From a virus, in the IMG/VR virus record IMGVR_UViG_3300046535_000852, positions 1 to 25,819 of that record: a stretch of 25,819 bases of DNA; one strand, 5' to 3'. Shown in pieces: positions 1-10,964 of this stretch. Made by a program: the position numbers and the translations under genes. Position 1 is the stretch's first letter. Each line of letters begins with the position of its first letter. The notes below the pieces were generated by a model that made no database searches, was not told the DNA's origin, and saw nothing but the letters and a program-made list of their open reading frames with translations.

Positions 1-862
1 GGTCGGTCTGGATCAGGATCGTGCAGATCAGCGGGCTGGCGGGGGTGGGGTTGGGGGACGCGACCGGGAAGCTGGTGTATGTCGTGTTGGAGGTGGCTCC
101 TGGCGTCGTGCTGCCCCGGTTCCAGGTGCCCGCGCTCTGATCGCAGCAAAAGCCGATCCAGTATTCGCTTCCCTTGTCCACGGCGATCGAAGGCGGCGTG
201 CTGTCGGTGCCGGTGAACAGGAACGTGTTGACGCCCGTCACCGGGCTGGTCTCGGGAACTGCTGAGCCGAGCACCTCACCCAACCCCGCCGAGTATACCG
301 AGCACTTCATATGACCCGCGAAACCGGCGCCGAGCGAAACGGTGATCCTGGTCACCCTGCCGCTGAAGGTGGGCACGAAAGCAGTATAGCGGGCATTATC
401 GCGCACGATCGGATCGGTGCCGGTGATCGCGGTGACAGGACTGAGCGTGCCGCTCTGGACGATGGGGCCGAAGGTATTGTCGGCCAGCGTGATCTTCCAG
501 CCGTTCGCCGAGCCATCGACAATCACCATATCGAGGCCGTTATCGACCATCGAGACCGGTGTCGTCAGGCCTGAGGTGATGTCCCCGAGATGCGTCCCGG
601 CCCAGGTCGCGGGGTCTACCAGGTACACGCCGCTGCCGCTGACGCAGTAGATGCCGCCCGTGGCGGCCTGCCGGATGCCCCGAACGGGGCCGGGGCCGAT
701 AGTGCTGAGCAACCGCGTGCCTGGCGTGGGGTAGTGTCCCGCCGGCATCGGCTCGCCCTGTGCCTGCGGCATCGGTTCAATGTATAAATTCCGGCAGGTC
801 TGGGCCGCCGCGACCACGCTGCGCGCCGTGTACGCCCCGCCAAGCAAGGGGACTTTGCTCAC
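1..862 (-). CDS. P22 gp10-like tail accessory (DNA stabilization) protein, 3' end outside window
   Basis: The frame is open from a GTG at 862 to the left edge (287 codons, no stop). The N-terminal ~130 residues look like P22 gp10, the head-closure protein that plugs the portal after packaging: PLLGGAYTARS near residue 5, CRNLYIEPMP at 23-32, YPTPGTRLL at 44-52, GPVRG at 58-62 and MVDNGLDMVIVDGS at 105-118. From about residue 135 the sequence changes to a beta-rich domain with TRITVSLGAGFAGHMKCSVY (171-190) and GSEYWIGFCCDQSAGTWNRG (231-250), a pattern I associate with fibre or receptor-binding modules rather than with gp10. The GTG overlaps the stop of the upstream HNH-AP2 gene in a GTGA, so the two are probably translationally coupled. 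The Shine-Dalgarno sequence is weak. The N-terminal call is fairly firm; the role of the second domain is inferred. Confidence 0.8.
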   Translation of the reverse strand, partial: MSKVPLLGGAYTARSVVAAAQTCRNLYIEPMPQAQGEPMPAGHYPTPGTRLLSTIGPGPVRGIRQAATGGIYCVSGSGVYLVDPATWAGTHLGDITSGLTTPVSMVDNGLDMVIVDGSANGWKITLADNTFGPIVQSGTLSPVTAITGTDPIVRDNARYTAFVPTFSGRVTRITVSLGAGFAGHMKCSVYSAGLGEVLGSAVPETSPVTGVNTFLFTGTDSTPPSIAVDKGSEYWIGFCCDQSAGTWNRGSTTPGATSNTTYTSFPVASPNPTPASPLICTILIQTD

Positions 863-1539
863 TGGAGATGCCTGACCTTGGCGGCTTCTCTGTAAGCGAC
901 GCCGGCTTCTTCCTTGGTCGCAAACGCGCCAAGATATGTTTGTTTGCCACGAATGACGATTTTAGAGACCCACTTGCCACGAACCAAGGTGGCGCCGCGC
1001 ACTCCTGACGAACTATTTTGGATAGGCGTTTCCTTGAAAGTCCATAAACCGGGATCTCTCTTGTTTTGGTTTTGCTCTCGTCTGGTTGCCCATCGGCAAT
1101 TATCAGGCTCATAGCCTTTCGTATTGTCTAACCGCTCAATCGTGAGGCCCGGAGCATAACCAGGGGCCATGTCCCCAAAGAATCTCTCAAATGAGCGCCA
1201 TCTCTCACAGACCAGGATTCCCCCGCCGCCGTACCGGGGATAAGCTGGGTCCCTGGGATTGTGACACCGCCCCATCATCGCCTTCCAGTTCCCGTAAGTC
1301 GGGAAGCCGGTCATGTTATGGGTGGCAAGCCGACTAGCAGTAAGTTCAGCGATCAGACAACCACACGAGCCGCTTCTGCCAGAGAACAGCGCGCTAGCCT
1401 GAACAGTAAAACTCTCTGCTCCGCAGTCGCATCTACAATGCCATCGCGCAGAGCCGTTGGTGCGCGACTTCGCTCGTCCAACTACCGTCCAACGGCCATA
1501 TCTTTTCCCAGTAAGATCATACCTCGGCTTACCAGCCAT
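859..1539 (-). CDS. HNH-type homing endonuclease with C-terminal AP2 DNA-binding domain
   Basis: A 226-residue protein with three parts. Residues 35-61 hold a cysteine-rich zinc-ribbon-like region (CRCDCG at 35-40 and SCGC at 58-61). Residues 83-160 hold the phage HNH-like core, with NWKAMMGRCHNP, then ERLDN (135-139), GYEPDNCRW (142-150) and REQNQNKR. Residues 178-224 form an AP2-like DNA-binding domain (GVRGATLVRGKWVSKI, then YLGAFATKEEAGVAYREAAK). Such proteins are free-standing homing endonucleases that nick or cut intronless phage DNA and spread by gene conversion. I chose the ATG at 1539 because it starts just before the conserved YDLTGKRYGRWTV region; ATGs at 1560 and 1626 are also in frame, and none has a convincing ribosome binding site. 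It sits between a tail fibre gene and the gp10-like gene, and its last codons overlap the gp10-like start. Confidence 0.87.
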   Translation of the reverse strand: MAGKPRYDLTGKRYGRWTVVGRAKSRTNGSARWHCRCDCGAESFTVQASALFSGRSGSCGCLIAELTASRLATHNMTGFPTYGNWKAMMGRCHNPRDPAYPRYGGGGILVCERWRSFERFFGDMAPGYAPGLTIERLDNTKGYEPDNCRWATRREQNQNKRDPGLWTFKETPIQNSSSGVRGATLVRGKWVSKIVIRGKQTYLGAFATKEEAGVAYREAAKVRHLQ

Positions 1540-1639
1540 CGCACACCCCCCAACCGTCATGGAGGATATATCACACACGTGAGGCTGCGAAAGCTGGTAG
1601 CCTCCTGTGAGGGCCTGCCTCATCATGTCACCCGGATCA

Positions 1640-2710
1640 TCAACACGCTACCGTTGCGATACATCCTTCCAGCTTCGCCACTCTCTGGCGCAAGGCTTTC
1701 ACCTCGGCGAGCAAGAGCGGGACGAATTTGGAATAATCCACGCCCCATGTGTCACTCGGCTCGTCATGGGTCACGGCACCGGGAAATATCTCGTACGCTT
1801 CCTGCGCGATCACGCCGAATGCCCGGCCGCCCGACTTCCAGGCGAAGTCACAGGCGTTTAACGCGTCGATGATCGGCCCGGCGTCGAAGGCCCGCGCGTC
1901 CTCTTTCAGGCGACCGTCGCTGGTCGTATTATAGGCCGTGACGGTCGCGGTCACGGAGATGGACCCAACCGCGCCGCCGGCATAGAGAAAGTTAACGGCG
2001 GCGCCCGTGGTGCCAATTCTGTTGACACTGACCGGAACAATCGTGTTTTCGAAAACCGCGCCGTTGCTCACGTCAAGGCTCATGCCGGCGACGTTGACAA
2101 CCCCCTGATTGCCGCCGTGCGCTATCACGATGTTGCCGGGTGTGACCCTGCCGGCGAACGTCGCGCCCTGACCCGACAACTGGCCGGAAATCGCCAGCGT
2201 GTTATTGACACCGACCGCGCCCTGGAACGTCGCCGCCTGAGCTGTGATCGCGCCAGTAAACGTCGCTAAGTTATCCACTTCCAACGGGCCGTGGAACGTC
2301 CCGGCCTGAGCCGCCAGATCACTGGAGAATGTCGCGGATGTGCCGGTCAACGGGCCGGCGAACGTCGCGGAGTTAGCGGCCAACGGACCGGAAAGCGTCA
2401 GCGTGTTGTTAATGCCCACGGCGCCCTCGAACGTCGCCGCCTGACCAACCAACGCACCAGTGAACGTCGCCGCGTTGTCAACCAACAGCGGGCCATGGAA
2501 AGTCCCGGCCTGGGCTGTCAGGTCGCTGGAGAACGTCGCCGTGGTTCCGACTATTGGGCCGCCAATCTCCAACCGCGCCGCGAATGCCGCGTTGAGGTCG
2601 TCGGCGTAAAGCACATCCCCGTCCTGCCACGGATAGCCCGAGGGGCTGGTGGTGAGGCTGCCGACCAGCGGGGGAAGGCTCGCCATCGTGGCCATTGGTG
2701 CCCGGCTCAT
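1640..2710 (-). CDS. Tail fibre protein with S74 intramolecular chaperone domain
   Basis: A 356-residue fibre. The N-terminus has YPWQDGDVLYADDLNAAF (26-43), a motif shared with the fibre encoded at 11773-13023 and probably a virion attachment point. Residues 58-192 are two tandem ~68-residue repeats rich in ATF..G..., typical of beta-helical shafts. The C-terminus from about 262 is a peptidase S74/intramolecular chaperone domain: SDGRLKED with the presumptive catalytic Ser264, then FGVIAQEAYEIFPGAV (298-313), VDYSKFVPLLLAEVKALRQR and a short coiled coil. In this family the domain trimerises the fibre and cleaves itself off after folding. The start has a good GGAGG seven bases upstream. It lies 13 bases after the gp4-like gene, so it is probably in the same transcript. 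Confidence 0.9.
   Translation of the reverse strand: MSRAPMATMASLPPLVGSLTTSPSGYPWQDGDVLYADDLNAAFAARLEIGGPIVGTTATFSSDLTAQAGTFHGPLLVDNAATFTGALVGQAATFEGAVGINNTLTLSGPLAANSATFAGPLTGTSATFSSDLAAQAGTFHGPLEVDNLATFTGAITAQAATFQGAVGVNNTLAISGQLSGQGATFAGRVTPGNIVIAHGGNQGVVNVAGMSLDVSNGAVFENTIVPVSVNRIGTTGAAVNFLYAGGAVGSISVTATVTAYNTTSDGRLKEDARAFDAGPIIDALNACDFAWKSGGRAFGVIAQEAYEIFPGAVTHDEPSDTWGVDYSKFVPLLLAEVKALRQRVAKLEGCIATVAC
2132..2539 (-). repeat. Tandem coding repeat in the S74 fibre, two ~204-bp units
   Basis: Two consecutive units of 68 codons, residues 58-125 and 126-192. Each contains SSDLxAQAGTFHGPL, then VDN.ATFTGA, QAATF.GAVG.NNTL and ATFAG in the same order and spacing. The DNA copies are also similar but diverged at many third positions. 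This looks like an internal duplication that lengthened the fibre shaft. Confidence 0.85.
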
Positions 2711-2723
2711 GTCATGTCCTCCG

Positions 2724-3926
2724 TTAACTCAGCACCGACCCGCCGCCGGTCACCCAGGCTTGCGAAAGCCCTCGCCCGGACCAACTCGACACGTCGCCCC
2801 GGTGATGCGTGAGCGCCGGGGGCATGCCGAGGAGGGGTATCTGGCTGTTGGCCAGTCTGATCGTCTCCAGCGCGGCCCTGGCCTGGCCGGCGAGGAACGG
2901 CGAGACCTGTCCGCCTGAAGCGATGACAATCCGGCACGCCAGATTGCTAACGATAGCATCAGTGTATTCCGGCGGCAGGTCGAGCGTGTTGTCCAGCGCG
3001 TCGTAGTCTGGCAGCGATGCCTTGACCAACAGGTGCATCTCGTAAAGTCCGGCCGGCGCGACCGGGTAGAAATACACCCGCGCCTGGGGCCATCCGCTAT
3101 CGTAGAACACCGCTGAGGGGATGCTCTTGAGGTCTTTGATGGTGATATGCGACCAGTCTTCCTTCGCCTCGATGATGGACAATGGAATATCGACCATGTT
3201 CGGCGTACGCGGGGAGGCGGCGGCGCCGAGGGGAAACGGCAGTTCCTCCGCCAGCACCGCGCCACCTTCACCGAACGAACCGGGGCCGATCGTCACCCAG
3301 GCGGCGTGAATCTTGTCCGGTCGCGCGACATTGATATCGAGGCCCCGACCGATCGTGTAGAAGTTCGCTCCGGTGGATACGACACTCGTCTCGACCTCAT
3401 TCCACACGAGCCATCGTTTGCGCTGCCACTGGCCCAGCATCATCATCAGTTGGCCAAATGCATCGTAAACGTCCTTGGAGCCGTCAGCCACGCTTTGCGT
3501 ATCGTTGATCCGCCCGGCCAGCCGCAACGCCATGAAGATGGCCTGTTCGACGGTCTCCACGAGAGCCGGCAGGAATGGCGCCACGTATTGTTGGTTAATC
3601 GCACTGAACGCCTTGAGCGCGGAGACGGCCAGTTGCACGTCGAGCGGGACGGGCGGCAGCGAGTAGATCTGCCGCAGCCGCACCGCCATGGTCGTGAGCA
3701 AAACGTGCTCGTAAGGCGTCCAATACGGGACGTCCGTCGTGAGGTTGGGAAACGTCGGGACCGATGTTCGATTGGCCTGGACGAGGCGTTCAAGGTTCCA
3801 TTCGTTGATCATCGCGTTAAGGATTTTGAAGCTGTCGTTAACGTCATCCGGCATCGGTGTTTGGCCGATTCCGTTCACGCCGGAATTTCTGAGACTTAAA
3901 AAGATGATGTCGTTCGCTATCGTCAT
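2724..3926 (-). CDS. P22 gp4-like tail accessory / head completion protein, internally duplicated
   Basis: A 400-residue protein in the position expected for a gp4-like adaptor (after coat, before gp10), which binds the portal ring and extends the DNA channel. The best-matching part begins near residue 124: VEQAIFMALRLAGRIN, DAFGQLMMMLGQWQRKRW, FYTIGRGLDINVARPDKIHAAWV, then LPPEYTDAIVSNLACRI and LANSQIPLLGMPP near the end. The first ~115 residues repeat the plan without the middle section: NDIIFLSLRNSGVNG, DSFKILNAMINEWN, then YWTPYEHVLLTTMAVRLRQI and ALKAFSAINQQY. Family members are usually shorter (about 160-220 residues), so this is about double length and looks like a tandem domain duplication. 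It starts with ATG six bases after a tiny membrane ORF. Confidence 0.75.
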   Translation of the reverse strand: MTIANDIIFLSLRNSGVNGIGQTPMPDDVNDSFKILNAMINEWNLERLVQANRTSVPTFPNLTTDVPYWTPYEHVLLTTMAVRLRQIYSLPPVPLDVQLAVSALKAFSAINQQYVAPFLPALVETVEQAIFMALRLAGRINDTQSVADGSKDVYDAFGQLMMMLGQWQRKRWLVWNEVETSVVSTGANFYTIGRGLDINVARPDKIHAAWVTIGPGSFGEGGAVLAEELPFPLGAAASPRTPNMVDIPLSIIEAKEDWSHITIKDLKSIPSAVFYDSGWPQARVYFYPVAPAGLYEMHLLVKASLPDYDALDNTLDLPPEYTDAIVSNLACRIVIASGGQVSPFLAGQARAALETIRLANSQIPLLGMPPALTHHRGDVSSWSGRGLSQAWVTGGGSVLS

Positions 3927-4393: not shown

Positions 4394-5203
4394 CTACTCG
4401 ATGTGTTTCCAAGAACGACGATGCCGAATGCCGGACACGTATTGCACCGAGATCCCGTAACGGCTGGCCAGATCGATGCCGCGATCCGTGCTTGAACGGA
4501 TGATCCGCACGATCTCAGGCGTGATCCGATCGCTGACGCCCACTCTCGGTCCAATACGAGGCGCCTTCACGCCTTTCTCGTCTCCAAGATGGGGCCATGA
4601 ATGACGCGCCTTGAGGCTACTGATCGTGTTGCGCGAGACCTTATAATCGTCAGCTATCCGGCTGTGGGTTCGCGGGTCGGCCAGGATTCTCCTGGCGTCC
4701 TCTTCAGTCAGAATTGCCCGGTAGTGATTTTCACCTTCAGGCGTGCGATGGCGACCTTTCGCCATCATGTCATCGGTGTTCTCGGCGCTTGTCCCGAGGA
4801 ACAGATGGTCCGGATTAACACAGGCCCGCACGTCGCATGTGTGACAAACAAAAAGCAGCGAAGAAATCGGCCCTTTGTGACGAGCGTAACTATAACGATG
4901 CGCTCTGGCCTGTAACACTCCATTAACCCGGCCATTGAACAATCCATAACCGTCTTTGTCTTTGCCGCCCTTCCACAACCAGCAGCCTTTTTCGTTTTCC
5001 TTGTTGATTTTCGAAGCAAATCTTTCATCAAACGACATGCGCCGCCAAAGCCAAGGCATCATCTGCGAGGCTACCGGTGAGCCATACTTTTGGTTCCGGC
5101 GCATGTGGTTGATGCAAAGCCCGAGAGAGATCGACGGTTCGTCGCAGCCCTTGACGCAGCATTCCGCCCAAAGGGCGTCTTCATTTCCTGACACGGTGTC
5201 CAT
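4394..5203 (-). CDS. Free-standing HNH homing endonuclease
   Basis: The protein begins with a small cysteine cluster (CCVKGC then GLCINH, a zinc ribbon seen at the N-terminus of some HNH proteins). The HNH zinc-finger core follows: [11 protein letters not shown], then [20 protein letters not shown] with paired cysteines and the NPDHL active-site segment. After the core come two helix-turn-helix units, [20 protein letters not shown] and [20 protein letters not shown], likely for target recognition. The frame is open back to a TTG at 5251. I prefer the ATG at 5203 (269 residues), just behind AAGGAG, although the spacing is very short; a GTG at 5194 would be better spaced. It sits alone between coat and decoration genes, a typical homing site. 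Composition is less GC-rich than its neighbours, consistent with later arrival. Confidence 0.88.
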
Positions 5204-5311
5204 GCTCCTTTTCAGCACGGACACCATATCAATGACGTTCACATTTGACAACGTGTATTCCGTATATTCAAATTGGTTATGTCATCTGGGTAGATATGGC
5301 GGAATTGCCGG

Positions 5312-6517
5312 CTAATTGGCTGCTAGCCTGACGGCCAATTGGGGTCGTAACGCAACGGCTCCCCATAGGACATCAATCCTAATTGGCATGGTGTCGTCGG
5401 AAATACTATATTGACGCACGGCCCTCATGGAGATACCATCTTTTACCACGCGTGATGCCATATCGACCCCGCCGGGCATCACCAGATCGGCTGTCGCGAA
5501 GGTAAAAGCGTCGGGACTGTAAGCAAGACTCAACCCGGTCGCCGTGCTCGCCGTTCCCTGGAACGCGATCGCCGCCGTCGCGTTGGCCACGGGGATGGCG
5601 ACGTTCTGCGATGGGGAGCCGACCAGGGCATTGATGGCCGGTGCGATGGCCATGTTGCCACCGCCGCCTCCGTAGGCCGCTGTCAACACGAACTGCTGGA
5701 GCACGCCGCTGTTGACCTTGGTTTCGGGGTGGATTCTGTAGACACCCGCGATGGTGAACACATCCCCCGCGTTACCCGCGCCGGCCCCGGTGATCACGGC
5801 CAGGGTGGCGCCGGTGACCTGATTGAGCACGATGGCCGTCGTGTAGGCAGCGTTCTCGGCGCCGCGGGTCTGGGTCGTCAAATGGGTGTTCTCCGCCCAC
5901 TCGAAGCCGCCGGCGAGGCCCATGACCCCGTCGGTATATTGCCGCGCGATCTGTGTGCTCTGCTGGAACAAGCCCTTGAGGCTGTCCACCAGATCCACGT
6001 TGTCCTGGGTGTTGATGCGTAGCTGCCACTGCTTGGACTGTGGCGTCAGGTTGTCGAGCAGCATCTTGCGAGCCACGAGCACGTTCTTGAACGATTGCGC
6101 GACACCCGGCGTCCCGACCTGATTCCAGACGGTCGGCCACATCATGCCGATAACCGCCGCCTCGATCTGCGCCGCGAGGACGGCGATGGCGGGTTCGATG
6201 TAGCGCGCGGTGAAGTCGTCAATGGACAGCGTGAGTTCAGCCGAGGAGAACGAAAAATCGACGTGATACTGATTGGTGATCGGCAGGCTGACCTGGGTTT
6301 CCACCGTGTTCTGCAAGCTGAGCGCCGGGGTGGTGCTGACGGTGTATTGCACCGGCAGGCGGATACGGAGCGTGCTGCCGATCTTGGCGCCGCTGTTGGC
6401 GAAGCTGTCGTCGTATTGCCTGTTGATGCTGCCTATGAAGTTGCACTTTTGGTGCAGGATCGCGAGCGCCTTGGCCGTGATCATGTTGATGGTGAGGAGT
6501 GTATTGGTGGCGGGCAT
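5312..6517 (-). CDS. Major capsid (coat) protein, P22 Gp5 family
   Basis: A 401-residue protein placed portal - scaffold - coat as in P22-like phages. It has the N-terminal coat pattern: ITAKALAILHQKCNFIGSIN, YDDSF (35-39), GAKIGSTLRIRLPVQYTV (43-60), LPITNQYHVDFSFSSAELTL (78-97) and the conserved IDDFTARYIEPAIAVLAAQI (99-118). The later part carries WQLRINTQDNVDLVDSLKGL and a VFTIAGVYRIHPET stretch like the inserted (I) domain region of this family, ending with RIDVLWGAVALRPQLAVRL. The start ATG has an AGAGG at good distance. A 192-base untranslated leader precedes it. It builds the icosahedral shell on the HK97 fold. Confidence 0.92.
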   Translation of the reverse strand: MPATNTLLTINMITAKALAILHQKCNFIGSINRQYDDSFANSGAKIGSTLRIRLPVQYTVSTTPALSLQNTVETQVSLPITNQYHVDFSFSSAELTLSIDDFTARYIEPAIAVLAAQIEAAVIGMMWPTVWNQVGTPGVAQSFKNVLVARKMLLDNLTPQSKQWQLRINTQDNVDLVDSLKGLFQQSTQIARQYTDGVMGLAGGFEWAENTHLTTQTRGAENAAYTTAIVLNQVTGATLAVITGAGAGNAGDVFTIAGVYRIHPETKVNSGVLQQFVLTAAYGGGGGNMAIAPAINALVGSPSQNVAIPVANATAAIAFQGTASTATGLSLAYSPDAFTFATADLVMPGGVDMASRVVKDGISMRAVRQYSISDDTMPIRIDVLWGAVALRPQLAVRLAAN

Positions 6518-7491: not shown

Positions 7492-7740
7492 TTACCGTGG
7501 TGCACTGGGTGGCACGTCGTGATGGATGACGGCGGGCTGCTCGTCCTCCGGCATGACGGCCCGCTTCGCCAGCGAGCCGCACAGGATGGCGAGTTTGGCC
7601 TCGAGGTCGAGCACGCGGTCGCGTAGTCGCTCGTTCTCGGCCAACAGCCGCTTGTTCTCCTCCAGCGTGTCGTAGAGCATGCCGATGGCGTTGCCATCGT
7701 TCAGCGGGACACCGTCATCGTCAGTGCCGGTGCCGGTCAT
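7492..7740 (-). CDS. Small coiled-coil protein between portal and scaffold
   Basis: An 82-residue protein with an acidic N-terminus (GTGTDDDG) and one strong heptad region, YDTLEENKRLLAENERLRDR continuing into VLDLEAKLAIL. It likely forms a dimeric or oligomeric coiled coil. Its ATG overlaps the portal stop as ATGA, so it is translationally coupled. The scaffold gene follows 14 bases later. I do not recognise a family; an assembly or scaffold-accessory role is suggested only by position. Confidence 0.75.
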   Translation of the reverse strand: MTGTGTDDDGVPLNDGNAIGMLYDTLEENKRLLAENERLRDRVLDLEAKLAILCGSLAKRAVMPEDEQPAVIHHDVPPSAPR

Positions 7741-10700
7741 GCCGTCGCACCCCCTGGAGCCGGTCCAGACGGCGCCTGACCGTCCGCCCCGTTCACGGGC
7801 ACCGGAGGCGCCAGCGTAGCCTGTAGCTCGCTCTCGTTCGCCGCGTGCTGCTGTAGGACGGGATGGATCTCGGTGCCCAGCATATCAGCGACCATTTGCC
7901 GCACGATCGCCTGGAGGCTGAGCGGATCGATCTGACCGACCGCCTTCAATCGATCCGTCTCCGCCTGATAGTCCTTGATCTCGATCTCCGCGCTCTTGTC
8001 CTTGGCCGCCTCCTGAGCATGCACCAATTGGGCCTTTAGCGATGCGATCTCCGCGTCGGCCTTGCCCAGCATGTCCTGCGCCTGCTGTTGCATCTGCTGC
8101 GCCTGCTGCGTGACCGCCATGACCTGCGGATCTGGCCCGGCCTTGTATTGCGGCGGCAATCCACGCTTCAGACGCTCCGCCAGTTCGTCCGCGTTCGGGA
8201 AATCCGAGTTCGCCGCCCAGAAGTCGCCCACGATCTGAAATGCCGCCGGATTTTGTTGCATTATCTGACTGAAAGCGTTGGCCGCTTCCTGTCGCTGCGT
8301 GCCATACGCCGGCCCGACATCGGCCTCGACGTCATAAGTCCCGACTTGCGGGTTGAATATGATCGCCGGATCTGGTGTCGCGGGGTCTTCCTGCTGTTTC
8401 TGCGCCTCGGCGGGCGAAATCGGCCCCGGCGGGGCGCCGTTCGGCTGTTGCCCGATGTATTGGTGCGCGTCGGGCAAATCCGGCGCGATCATCGCCTTGT
8501 TTTCGGTCCCGTCCTCGGCCAGCATCATCACCACGCGCCGCGTGTCGTATACTTTCGGGATCAGATCGAGCAAAATACGCCCGATTTGCCGGATGCCCTT
8601 GGCCTGATTGTCCACGTAGTGATAAGTCGCGACATCACTTTGTCTTTGCCGCGCGTCAATGGCCCGACCGCTGCGCTCATTGCCCGGCATCCCCATCTCA
8701 GCCTGATACTGACCGGTGACGGAGCGTAAATCGTCACGCGCGATCGACATACCCTGAATGTAGGCCTGCGCCATGGCCGGCGGATCGTTGCGCGCCGGCG
8801 GAGGGATCGGGTTTCCCGCCTCGTCGAGGCCGTTGTAAACCAGCACCGACCAGTTCTTGACGTTCGCCGTGGCCCACTGCTCCGTCCGCCCCTCGATCGC
8901 GTCAGCACGCGCCACGTAAGGCGTCTTGGTCTGTAGCGCGACCTGCTCGACAGCCGCCGAGTTGTGCGTCGGCACCATCGATGGACCGGCGAGGAACAAG
9001 TGTGACGCAGCCTCGACATGAACACACCGCACCGGCTCTGACGGCACCGCTTCAATGCTCTTGATGCGGAACCGCCTGGTGCGCCGCCAATGAGTAACGC
9101 GCGCATGCTCCTGTACCGCCCGTTTCCGACGCAAGCGAAACACTTGCACATCCGGAGGAGCGGAAAACGTGAACTGATCGTACGCCAGACAATCTCGAAT
9201 GTTGCCATCGGGGAATTTACGACGGGCCGCGACCCGAGATAAACGAATGGATTTTAACCCGAGAGTGCTGAGCAGTTCAGCGAACCCGTCCGACAGCCGT
9301 GAATTTCCGGTATAGAACGTGCAGGTGCGAACTTTCAGATTCGCCGACCCGTCCGTGTCCATCAGGCCCTGTAAGAGAGCCCATCGCTGCCGCGCCGACG
9401 CGCGTAGATAGACCTCAGGAATATGTTTGTTACCCGCCAGACCAAGTCTGACGAACCGATCCCACACATCGTAAACGGAGAACGCTCCGTCTTTATGGAC
9501 GGGAGATAGGCGGCAACCGACTTCGGCGAGATGCTGCCTGAACTCGTCTATATCCGTCTTGCCGGTGATTCTGGCTCCAGCAGCCGTGCCATCGCCCAGC
9601 CAAACACCAAGCAGATACGGATCAATGGGCAGGTCGACATCCGGCAAATCGAGTGGTTCGGGCATCCGGATAAAATGCTTGGTTGGTGTCAGTTCCTTCG
9701 TGCTTACAACCTTCGTGTCCCATTTCCACCCGCCAGCGATAGCCTTGCCTCGCTCCTCGACCTGCCATGGATGACCAGCATCCGCGATGATCGACGAGCC
9801 GTCATCAAATGTGACCCGATGACATTGGCGGAAAAGAAAGACCGGGCTTAGACCAGACACCAGGGTTGGATGCCCCTGTTCGTCAAGCAGGAAATCGCCC
9901 TCTCGGACCTCGCCCATCGTGGTCCAGCCAGCAGGCGTCGGCAAAGGAGTATGCAAAGCCAGCGGCGCCCAATAATTGTAAATCCGCTGTGCATCGATCT
10001 GGGCGCGGGTGTGCCCTTTCCGGTCCATCTCGCCCTCGATCACCGTCTCTTCGCCGATGAACGGCACAATGGGTATGTATTTACCCAGCCATTGCTCGCG
10101 ATCGATGATCTTGTCGCCGGCCAGCTTGAACCACTCGATCTCCGGCTCCGCGACGTCGCGCGACTGAACGATCAGCGCCTTGACCTGATCGCGCAGTTCC
10201 GCCGGGATCTCGCTGTCGCGCACCACCGTCCCGTCCTGAAGCCGGTGCAACGTCTCGTTGTTGAGATTCCGCCTCCAGTATTCCGCGATCCGCACATGGT
10301 CCTTGTCGTTCCAGCCGTCACTGTGCTCCAGCGTAGCCGGTGCGACGTTGTCCTCTTTCCCGTATTCCTCCTCGTAACGATCGCGCGGGATGTCCTCAAA
10401 AACGAACGCGAAACCGGAATCCGACTTGTCGTATTCCTTCGCATCCGGGTCCATGTAGATCGACAGCGGATTGGCGACCCGGCGGATGAACAGATCGAGG
10501 TCGAAGCTGTTACCATCAATGTAGTCTGTATCCACCCGAACGTAACCAAGGCCGCTCTCGACCTGGTGGTATGTCGCGGTGCTGTAGGCGTCGACCGCTT
10601 TGCTGACGTATTCGATGCGCCGAATGATGCCGCTGAACACCTGCGCCGCTTCGTATGACGCATGGCCACCAACAGGAGTGACCTTGATCTGCGCTTTGTT

Positions 10701-10964
10701 CTGCCGCGCATCGTTGATCACCTGGAGGTTGTGCTGGCGGACCTGATTATACGTCAGTGTCGGCCGGTCGCCCCGATCGGTCATCGTTCCCGCGTTGCTG
10801 TACCACTGCCAGCCGTTCTGGCTGTCGCCGTTCGCGAAGCGCGTATCGAACAACGCGCGCGTCCTCCACGCGCTTTCCCAACCCACGCACCGCTCAAAGC
10901 GAGCCTTGGCCTCCTTCAGGATGTCTTCGTCGCTGTCTTTAGCCCGAGGCATGGTACCACTCAT
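7737..10964 (-). CDS. P22-like portal protein precursor with an in-frame intein
   Basis: A 1075-codon frame encoding a portal interrupted by a 336-residue intein (residues 333-668). The exteins add up to about 739 residues, close to the P22 portal (725). Recognisable portal parts are DGDSQNGWQW-like text near 46-54, PTLTYNQVRQHNLQVINDAR (68-87), NPLSIYMDPDAKEYDKSD (165-182), WLGKYIPIVPFIGEE (292-306) and QIDAQRIYNYW (322-332). After the intein come SAAVEQVALQTKTPY, the TGQYQAEMGMPGNERSGRAI stretch, and a C-terminal coiled coil with QQAQQMQQQAQDM. The portal is the dodecameric DNA channel at the capsid vertex and the terminase docking site. An ATG at 10952 is an alternative start. The 5' end overlaps the upstream HTH gene by 26 bases. 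Confidence 0.93.
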   Translation of the reverse strand: MSGTMPRAKDSDEDILKEAKARFERCVGWESAWRTRALFDTRFANGDSQNGWQWYSNAGTMTDRGDRPTLTYNQVRQHNLQVINDARQNKAQIKVTPVGGHASYEAAQVFSGIIRRIEYVSKAVDAYSTATYHQVESGLGYVRVDTDYIDGNSFDLDLFIRRVANPLSIYMDPDAKEYDKSDSGFAFVFEDIPRDRYEEEYGKEDNVAPATLEHSDGWNDKDHVRIAEYWRRNLNNETLHRLQDGTVVRDSEIPAELRDQVKALIVQSRDVAEPEIEWFKLAGDKIIDREQWLGKYIPIVPFIGEETVIEGEMDRKGHTRAQIDAQRIYNYWAPLALHTPLPTPAGWTTMGEVREGDFLLDEQGHPTLVSGLSPVFLFRQCHRVTFDDGSSIIADAGHPWQVEERGKAIAGGWKWDTKVVSTKELTPTKHFIRMPEPLDLPDVDLPIDPYLLGVWLGDGTAAGARITGKTDIDEFRQHLAEVGCRLSPVHKDGAFSVYDVWDRFVRLGLAGNKHIPEVYLRASARQRWALLQGLMDTDGSANLKVRTCTFYTGNSRLSDGFAELLSTLGLKSIRLSRVAARRKFPDGNIRDCLAYDQFTFSAPPDVQVFRLRRKRAVQEHARVTHWRRTRRFRIKSIEAVPSEPVRCVHVEAASHLFLAGPSMVPTHNSAAVEQVALQTKTPYVARADAIEGRTEQWATANVKNWSVLVYNGLDEAGNPIPPPARNDPPAMAQAYIQGMSIARDDLRSVTGQYQAEMGMPGNERSGRAIDARQRQSDVATYHYVDNQAKGIRQIGRILLDLIPKVYDTRRVVMMLAEDGTENKAMIAPDLPDAHQYIGQQPNGAPPGPISPAEAQKQQEDPATPDPAIIFNPQVGTYDVEADVGPAYGTQRQEAANAFSQIMQQNPAAFQIVGDFWAANSDFPNADELAERLKRGLPPQYKAGPDPQVMAVTQQAQQMQQQAQDMLGKADAEIASLKAQLVHAQEAAKDKSAEIEIKDYQAETDRLKAVGQIDPLSLQAIVRQMVADMLGTEIHPVLQQHAANESELQATLAPPVPVNGADGQAPSGPAPGGATA
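8961..9968 (-). mobile_element. Class 3 intein with LAGLIDADG homing endonuclease, inside the portal
   Basis: The insert begins APLALHTPLPTPAGWTTMGE, the usual N-terminal block of inteins that lack Cys1/Ser1, and ends MVPTHN followed by Ser (+1 extein residue). It shows the WCT signature of class 3 inteins: Trp400 in DAGHPW (block B), Cys647 in VRCVHVEAASHLFLAG (block F) and Thr666 in VPTHN (block G). In class 3 inteins the block F Cys starts splicing, which fits the Ala at position 1. The middle has two LAGLIDADG-type motifs, YLLGVWLGDG (450-459) and ALLQGLMDTDG (529-539), with the expected acidic residues, so the endonuclease may be active. The exact N-junction (W332/A333) is my best reading; one residue either way is possible. 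Confidence 0.9.

Follow-up and report, generated by a model that had tools for sequence, protein, structure and literature searches.

A candidate class 3 intein with a LAGLIDADG endonuclease domain in the portal protein of an uncultured P22-like phage

The portal gene of an uncultured P22-like phage contains an in-frame insert that is, with very high probability, a class 3 intein of full length that includes a LAGLIDADG endonuclease with two motifs. The window, i.e., the whole stretch of DNA that was analysed, is an uncultured contig of 25,819 bases (IMG/VR virus record IMGVR_UViG_3300046535_000852), and the boundaries of the insert, its motifs and fold, the empty sites in its relatives, the family to which it belongs, and its sporadic distribution were established computationally. 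Class 3 inteins, which are defined by the absence of a nucleophile at residue 1 together with Trp-Cys-Thr (WCT) at block positions B:12, F:4, and G:5 (PMC5050341, PMC5222942), have been described in helicases and terminases as well as in other phage proteins (PMC5050341, PMC4031507). This element is one of a known kind; as far as we found, the P22-like portal is a new host protein and a new site for class 3 inteins.

Results

The portal gene and the limits of its insert

The portal precursor is encoded on the minus strand by an open reading frame of 1075 codons followed by a stop (7737..10964); a plus-strand reading of 8961-9968 was rejected, as translation gave many stops. The initial annotation had taken the host for a P22-like portal, and this is borne out by P22_portal (PF16510), which covers the frame in two stretches on both sides of the insert (overall E=3.8e-150) with a LAGLIDADG_3 match between them. 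The frame also matches phrog_156 (portal), a profile of intein-free portals matched P22 gp1 and other solved portals, and the same contig holds a gene for a P22-type coat protein (PF11651, E=6.4e-26).

A scan of viral contigs returned 53 portal relatives, all intein-free where the site was readable. When the exteins were aligned with intein-free portals, the insert was absent from the latter and the site empty: more than 40 of them read continuously QR[I/M]YNYW-[A/S/N]-S[A/S]A.E, and portals up to 95% identical to that of the window read NYW-A-SAAVEQ. Since intein-free portals have one residue between NYW and Ser, Ala333 belongs to the extein and the intein starts at Pro334 of the precursor (Pro1 of the intein). 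The precursor accordingly comprises an N-extein of 332 residues through NYW plus Ala333, ending in QRIYNYWA (9966..10964, minus strand), an intein of 335 residues from Pro1 to Asn335 (8961..9965, minus strand), and a C-extein of 407 residues that starts with Ser+1 (SAAVEQVAL; 7740..8960, minus strand). Both exteins are delimited by the intein-free portals and the Pfam stretches, and the intein by the intein-free portals, the DNA alignment, the PDB profile, and the structural model. The insert had previously been placed at 8961-9968, with 336 residues and an alanine at position 1. All but the N-terminal boundary of that placement holds; this boundary lies one codon off, and with Ala333 in the extein the length becomes 335 residues and residue 1 becomes a proline, as fixed by the more than 40 intein-free portals.

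The insert is in frame and measures exactly 335 codons (1005 nt). In a DNA alignment with the nearest intein-free portal (L059), which is about 89% and about 85% identical on the two sides of the site, the match extends up to the junction from both sides, and the window has 1005 additional bases and no other gain or loss. Because the window is an uncultured contig, a chimeric assembly of two phages might be suspected, but we regard this as extremely improbable given that the frame is exactly kept and the same arrangement occurs in about 20 independent contigs.

Splicing residues and fold

The residues that define class 3 are present in the insert (all on the minus strand). Pro1 (9963..9965) is a non-nucleophilic first residue, and the WCT triad consists of Trp67 (block B:12, in ADAGHPW; 9765..9767), Cys314 (block F:4, in VRCVHVEA; 9024..9026), and Thr333 (block G:5, in VPTHN; 8967..8969), each at the place initially assigned to it as W400, C647, and T666 of the open reading frame. 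The block B histidine (B:10) is His65 (9771..9773), Cys48 (9822..9824) is the equivalent of Cys48 of the DnaBi1 intein (PMC6195587), and the C-terminal splice junction is formed by His334-Asn335 (8961..8966) and Ser+1, the first residue of the C-extein (8958..8960), which correspond to the H667-N668 and S669 noted earlier. Cys48, His65, Trp67, Cys314, Thr333, His334, and Asn335 are invariant in all 21 portal inteins that we gathered; Trp67 is also found in 200 and Cys314 in all of 201 other relatives, and the +1 residue is Ser or Thr in each of the 222 inteins counted. Residue 1 of the window intein is thus neither Cys nor Ser, the block F cysteine is conserved throughout the gathered portal inteins, and because Pro1 is as non-nucleophilic as Ala, the class 3 assignment stands despite the shift of the boundary.

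The fold points the same way. A PDB sequence search with the insert alone gave class 3 DnaB inteins as top matches (E=2.6e-28, a similarity well above what chance would produce), and a profile search with 56 sequences did so at 2.2e-47, with PI-SceI at 1e-16 for the endonuclease part. An AlphaFold2 model of the intein, built with the 56-sequence alignment, reached a mean pLDDT of 96.7 and a pTM of 0.93. Foldseek returned PI-SceI as the top match of this model, and VIA-align superposed it on PI-SceI along the entire length with Z 27.5 (324 residues) and on the class 3 intein 6bs8 with Z 23.1, where 125 residues at 50% identity fitted with an rmsd of 1.0 Å. The sequence features, together with a predicted structure that superposes on class 3 crystal structures, support the identification of the insert as a class 3 intein. 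That it should be a class 1 or class 2 intein with incidental WCT residues is scarcely credible: no point in favour of such an assignment was found, Pro1 is unable to serve as a class 1 nucleophile, and in class 2 inteins splicing is initiated directly by Cys+1 (PMC4031507), whereas the window has Ser+1. The conserved cysteine at F:4 in all 21 gathered portal inteins and the class 3 identity of the nearest solved structures argue in the same direction.

Splicing of the insert, cleavage by its endonuclease, and homing as the source of the sporadic distribution are our inferences. The portal would be translated as a 1075-aa precursor, in which Cys314, the predicted initiating nucleophile, would attack the Ala333-Pro1 peptide bond, with a block F branched intermediate predicted. 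The N-extein would then be transferred from Cys314 to Ser+1, the second nucleophile, Asn335 would cyclise with the help of His334, and the exteins would be joined as NYW-A-S-AAVEQ into a normal portal of 740 residues. Where a co-infecting phage has an intein-free portal allele, the endonuclease would in turn cleave this allele at the conserved site, and the intein would be copied into it during repair.

The endonuclease domain and selection

The LAGLIDADG homing endonuclease domain spans approximately residues 108-293 (9087..9644, minus strand) and is supported by PF14528 (27 bits, cut-off 22.5) and by structural matches to PI-SceI and I-Tsp061I. Both of the LAGLIDADG motifs first reported from the sequence are there, YLLGVWLGDG (9588..9617, minus strand) and LLQGLMDTDG (9348..9377, minus strand), and they keep their acidic residues (Asp125 in LGDG, Asp203 and Asp205 in MDTDG). 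Three of the 21 gathered portal inteins (L111 at 2491-3507, L118, and L188) have LGNG in motif 1, with Asn at the first acidic position; their endonucleases may be impaired though the splicing residues are intact, so that some relatives may no longer have endonuclease activity.

Between close pairs (the window and L111; L279 and L280), dN/dS was about 0.1-0.2 in both the splicing and the endonuclease parts, consistent with purifying selection on both, with dS near saturation in the pair of the window and L111. These values bear on whether the intein is decayed and non-splicing, leaving the portal non-functional as in the Arthrobacter FB24 pseudogene Arth_1007. Inactive class 3 inteins do exist (PMC3196547), but decay is very unlikely here: the 1075 codons contain no stop or frameshift, all catalytic positions are intact, dN/dS is far below 1, and an inactive insert at a conserved place in the portal, an essential head protein, would be lethal in the absence of complementation.

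A family of inteins at the portal site

What was first described as a single case belongs to a family: class 3 inteins of 44-68% identity are present at this site, three of them one codon upstream, in at least 21 P22-like portals, the window included, and the true number is larger. Carriers were gathered with a C-terminal junction pattern and then by scanning viral and genome contigs with alignments; duplicates were removed, and the carriers that remain match portals on either side of their intein, with Pfam run on seven. They come from uncultured IMG/VR phages and one Verrucomicrobiota MAG, a Chthoniobacterales genome with the carrier on a 45-kb contig (L188). The second carrier found (L109/L111) has an Ala1 intein at the same site, 68% identical to that of the window, between exteins that are about 63% identical. 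L393 resembles a further carrier beyond the 21; L108 and L110, also from the junction-pattern scan, proved not to be carriers.

Residue 1 varies widely among the 21 gathered portal inteins (Pro in nine, Ala in five, His in three, Leu in two, Asp and Cys in one each), the +1 residue is Ser or Thr, and the joined extein motif has the same length in every gathered carrier. The intein follows NYWx in 18 of the 21, and in the other three (L272:4001-5011, L278:628-1650, and L287:3998-5020) it lies one codon upstream with Thr as +1 (NYW/TS versus NYWx/S, the slash marking the insertion point). Since these three are scattered rather than grouped in the intein tree, the one-codon shift may have arisen more than once. 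The apparent Cys1 occurs together with Cys at F:4 in a WCT-bearing portal intein (L276:3998-5014), and the same combination is seen, with putative boundaries, in the terminase inteins L120:3998-4975, L121:3998-5014, and L122:3998-5011.

Insertion site and spread

As the initial annotation had recognised, the insertion lies in a conserved segment of the portal, a stretch rich in invariant residues in the alignment of intein-free portals: among twelve diverse ones, invariant Q, R, N, and Y stand upstream and A, L, K, and P downstream. By profile alignment, with residue numbers counted from it, the site corresponds to the Met334-Ser335 bond of P22 gp1 (3lj5), where an unspliced insert should disturb the portal. 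Precise insertion at a conserved site that is empty in relatives is characteristic of a homing element.

In the portal tree, carriers are dispersed among intein-free portals and 11 changes are needed, with long and uncertain deep branches. The nearest of the gathered carriers has a portal only 62% identical to that of the window, for which an intein-free relative exists at 95% identity. An even closer pair comes from one metagenome (3300012923): the portals of L269, which has the intein, and L397, which lacks it, share 98.8% identity, and a clean insertion of 1020 bases sets the two apart. Judging from the sequences, this patchy distribution is likely to stem from horizontal spread through homing. 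In the intein tree, the 21 gathered portal inteins and five terminase inteins (L115, L120-122, and L283) form one clade (bootstrap 98, SH-aLRT 95), the bootstrap being not fully settled; since a few terminase inteins are placed among the portal inteins or next to them, the tree lends no support to a strictly single origin of the latter. In 167 of 171 carrier pairs, the inteins resemble each other more closely than the exteins do (mean 48% versus 33%), counted on sequences that were gathered by similarity to the window intein. Slower evolution of inteins than of portals could contribute to this higher identity, which alone is no proof of transfer, and transfer appears to be the best reading of the contrast, though not the sole one.

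Discussion

The crystallised class 3 inteins of Mycobacterium smegmatis DnaBi1 (6bs8, 6own) and M. chimaera DnaB1 (6rix) share with the window intein the class 3 domain, WCT, Cys48, and the His-Asn end. However, both are mini-inteins in the P-loop of a bacterial helicase, whereas the window intein has an endonuclease and a phage portal as host. The class 3 LAGLIDADG inteins of phage TerL proteins (for example those of Vibrio phage 489E54-1 and Acidovorax phage ACF1, and mycobacteriophage TerL) have the same domain layout and 34-37% identity over 96%; their host gene differs from the portal, and many lie in the ATPase P-loop. PI-SceI, the yeast VMA intein, shares the fold over the whole length, with a Hint domain and LAGLIDADG, but differs in its class 1 splicing and in an extra DNA-recognition region.

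Inteins in phage portals as such have been described before in six cases of cluster C1 mycobacteriophages (PORT inteins; PMC5050341). These phages are unrelated to P22-like phages, and the text consulted gives no class for the PORT inteins. Gp109, gp110, and gp124 of Gizmo were examined as candidates for the C1 PORT gene, and none was recognisable as a portal. Three different carriers were each searched against 50,697 phage records, and no place in these covered at least 80% of portal plus intein. In the literature covered here, we found no earlier report of a portal that hosts a class 3 intein, though an earlier mention may exist elsewhere.

The DnaBi1 intein also raises the question of whether the portal intein might act as a regulatory switch and not only as a selfish element. 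In M. smegmatis, the class 3 DnaB intein splices conditionally via Cys48 and Cys118 (PMC6195587), and by analogy a Cys48-Cys314 disulphide formed under oxidising conditions might hold the portal in its precursor form, so that this redox- or condition-gated toggle would delay portal maturation and hence head assembly and DNA packaging. Cys48 was termed non-conserved in PMC6195587, but nearly all class 3 inteins of this branch have it: all 21 portal inteins and 180 of the 201 other relatives gathered. Its conservation may, however, reflect catalysis or folding only, as mutation of Cys48 abolishes DnaBi1 splicing (PMC6195587), and the sporadic presence of the intein argues against an important regulatory role; we consider gating of this kind unlikely, and a homing intein that splices out of the portal is the reading we prefer.

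With the P22-like portal added to the hosts of class 3 inteins, an unusual natural allelic series becomes available: a single site has at least 21 alleles that vary in their first residue (Pro, Ala, His, Leu, Asp, Cys), with three one-codon shifts and near-identical plus/minus pairs. Such a series could be used to probe the tolerance of class 3 splicing at position 1 and the ways in which inteins pass from one phage to another or cross between portal and terminase genes; it could also show whether these inteins supply new splicing tools.

Annotation and other mobile elements

Within the portal, the intein gives matches to the PHROGs phrog_36964, phrog_15, and phrog_19299, annotated as 'terminase large subunit', and automatic annotation can therefore mislabel intein-bearing portals as terminases. 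The head module of the window appears to hold a second mobile element, a free-standing HNH endonuclease gene (4394-5251, minus strand; PF13392, 7.7e-8) that adjoins the P22-type coat gene (5312-6517). A further open reading frame of 255 aa (859-1626, minus strand) resembles by eye an HNH/AP2-type homing protein and has no Pfam match at 1e-3. Among the relatives, the N-terminal third of the terminases of L142, L153, and L154 (and of L143, whose N-terminus is cut) contains two class-3-like inteins in the P-loop, apparently three extein residues apart. These tandem inteins read ...MN/CGK/ALALDT...HN/ST, with slashes at the apparent intein ends, and the first is a mini-intein with a Met-Asn end and Cys as +1.
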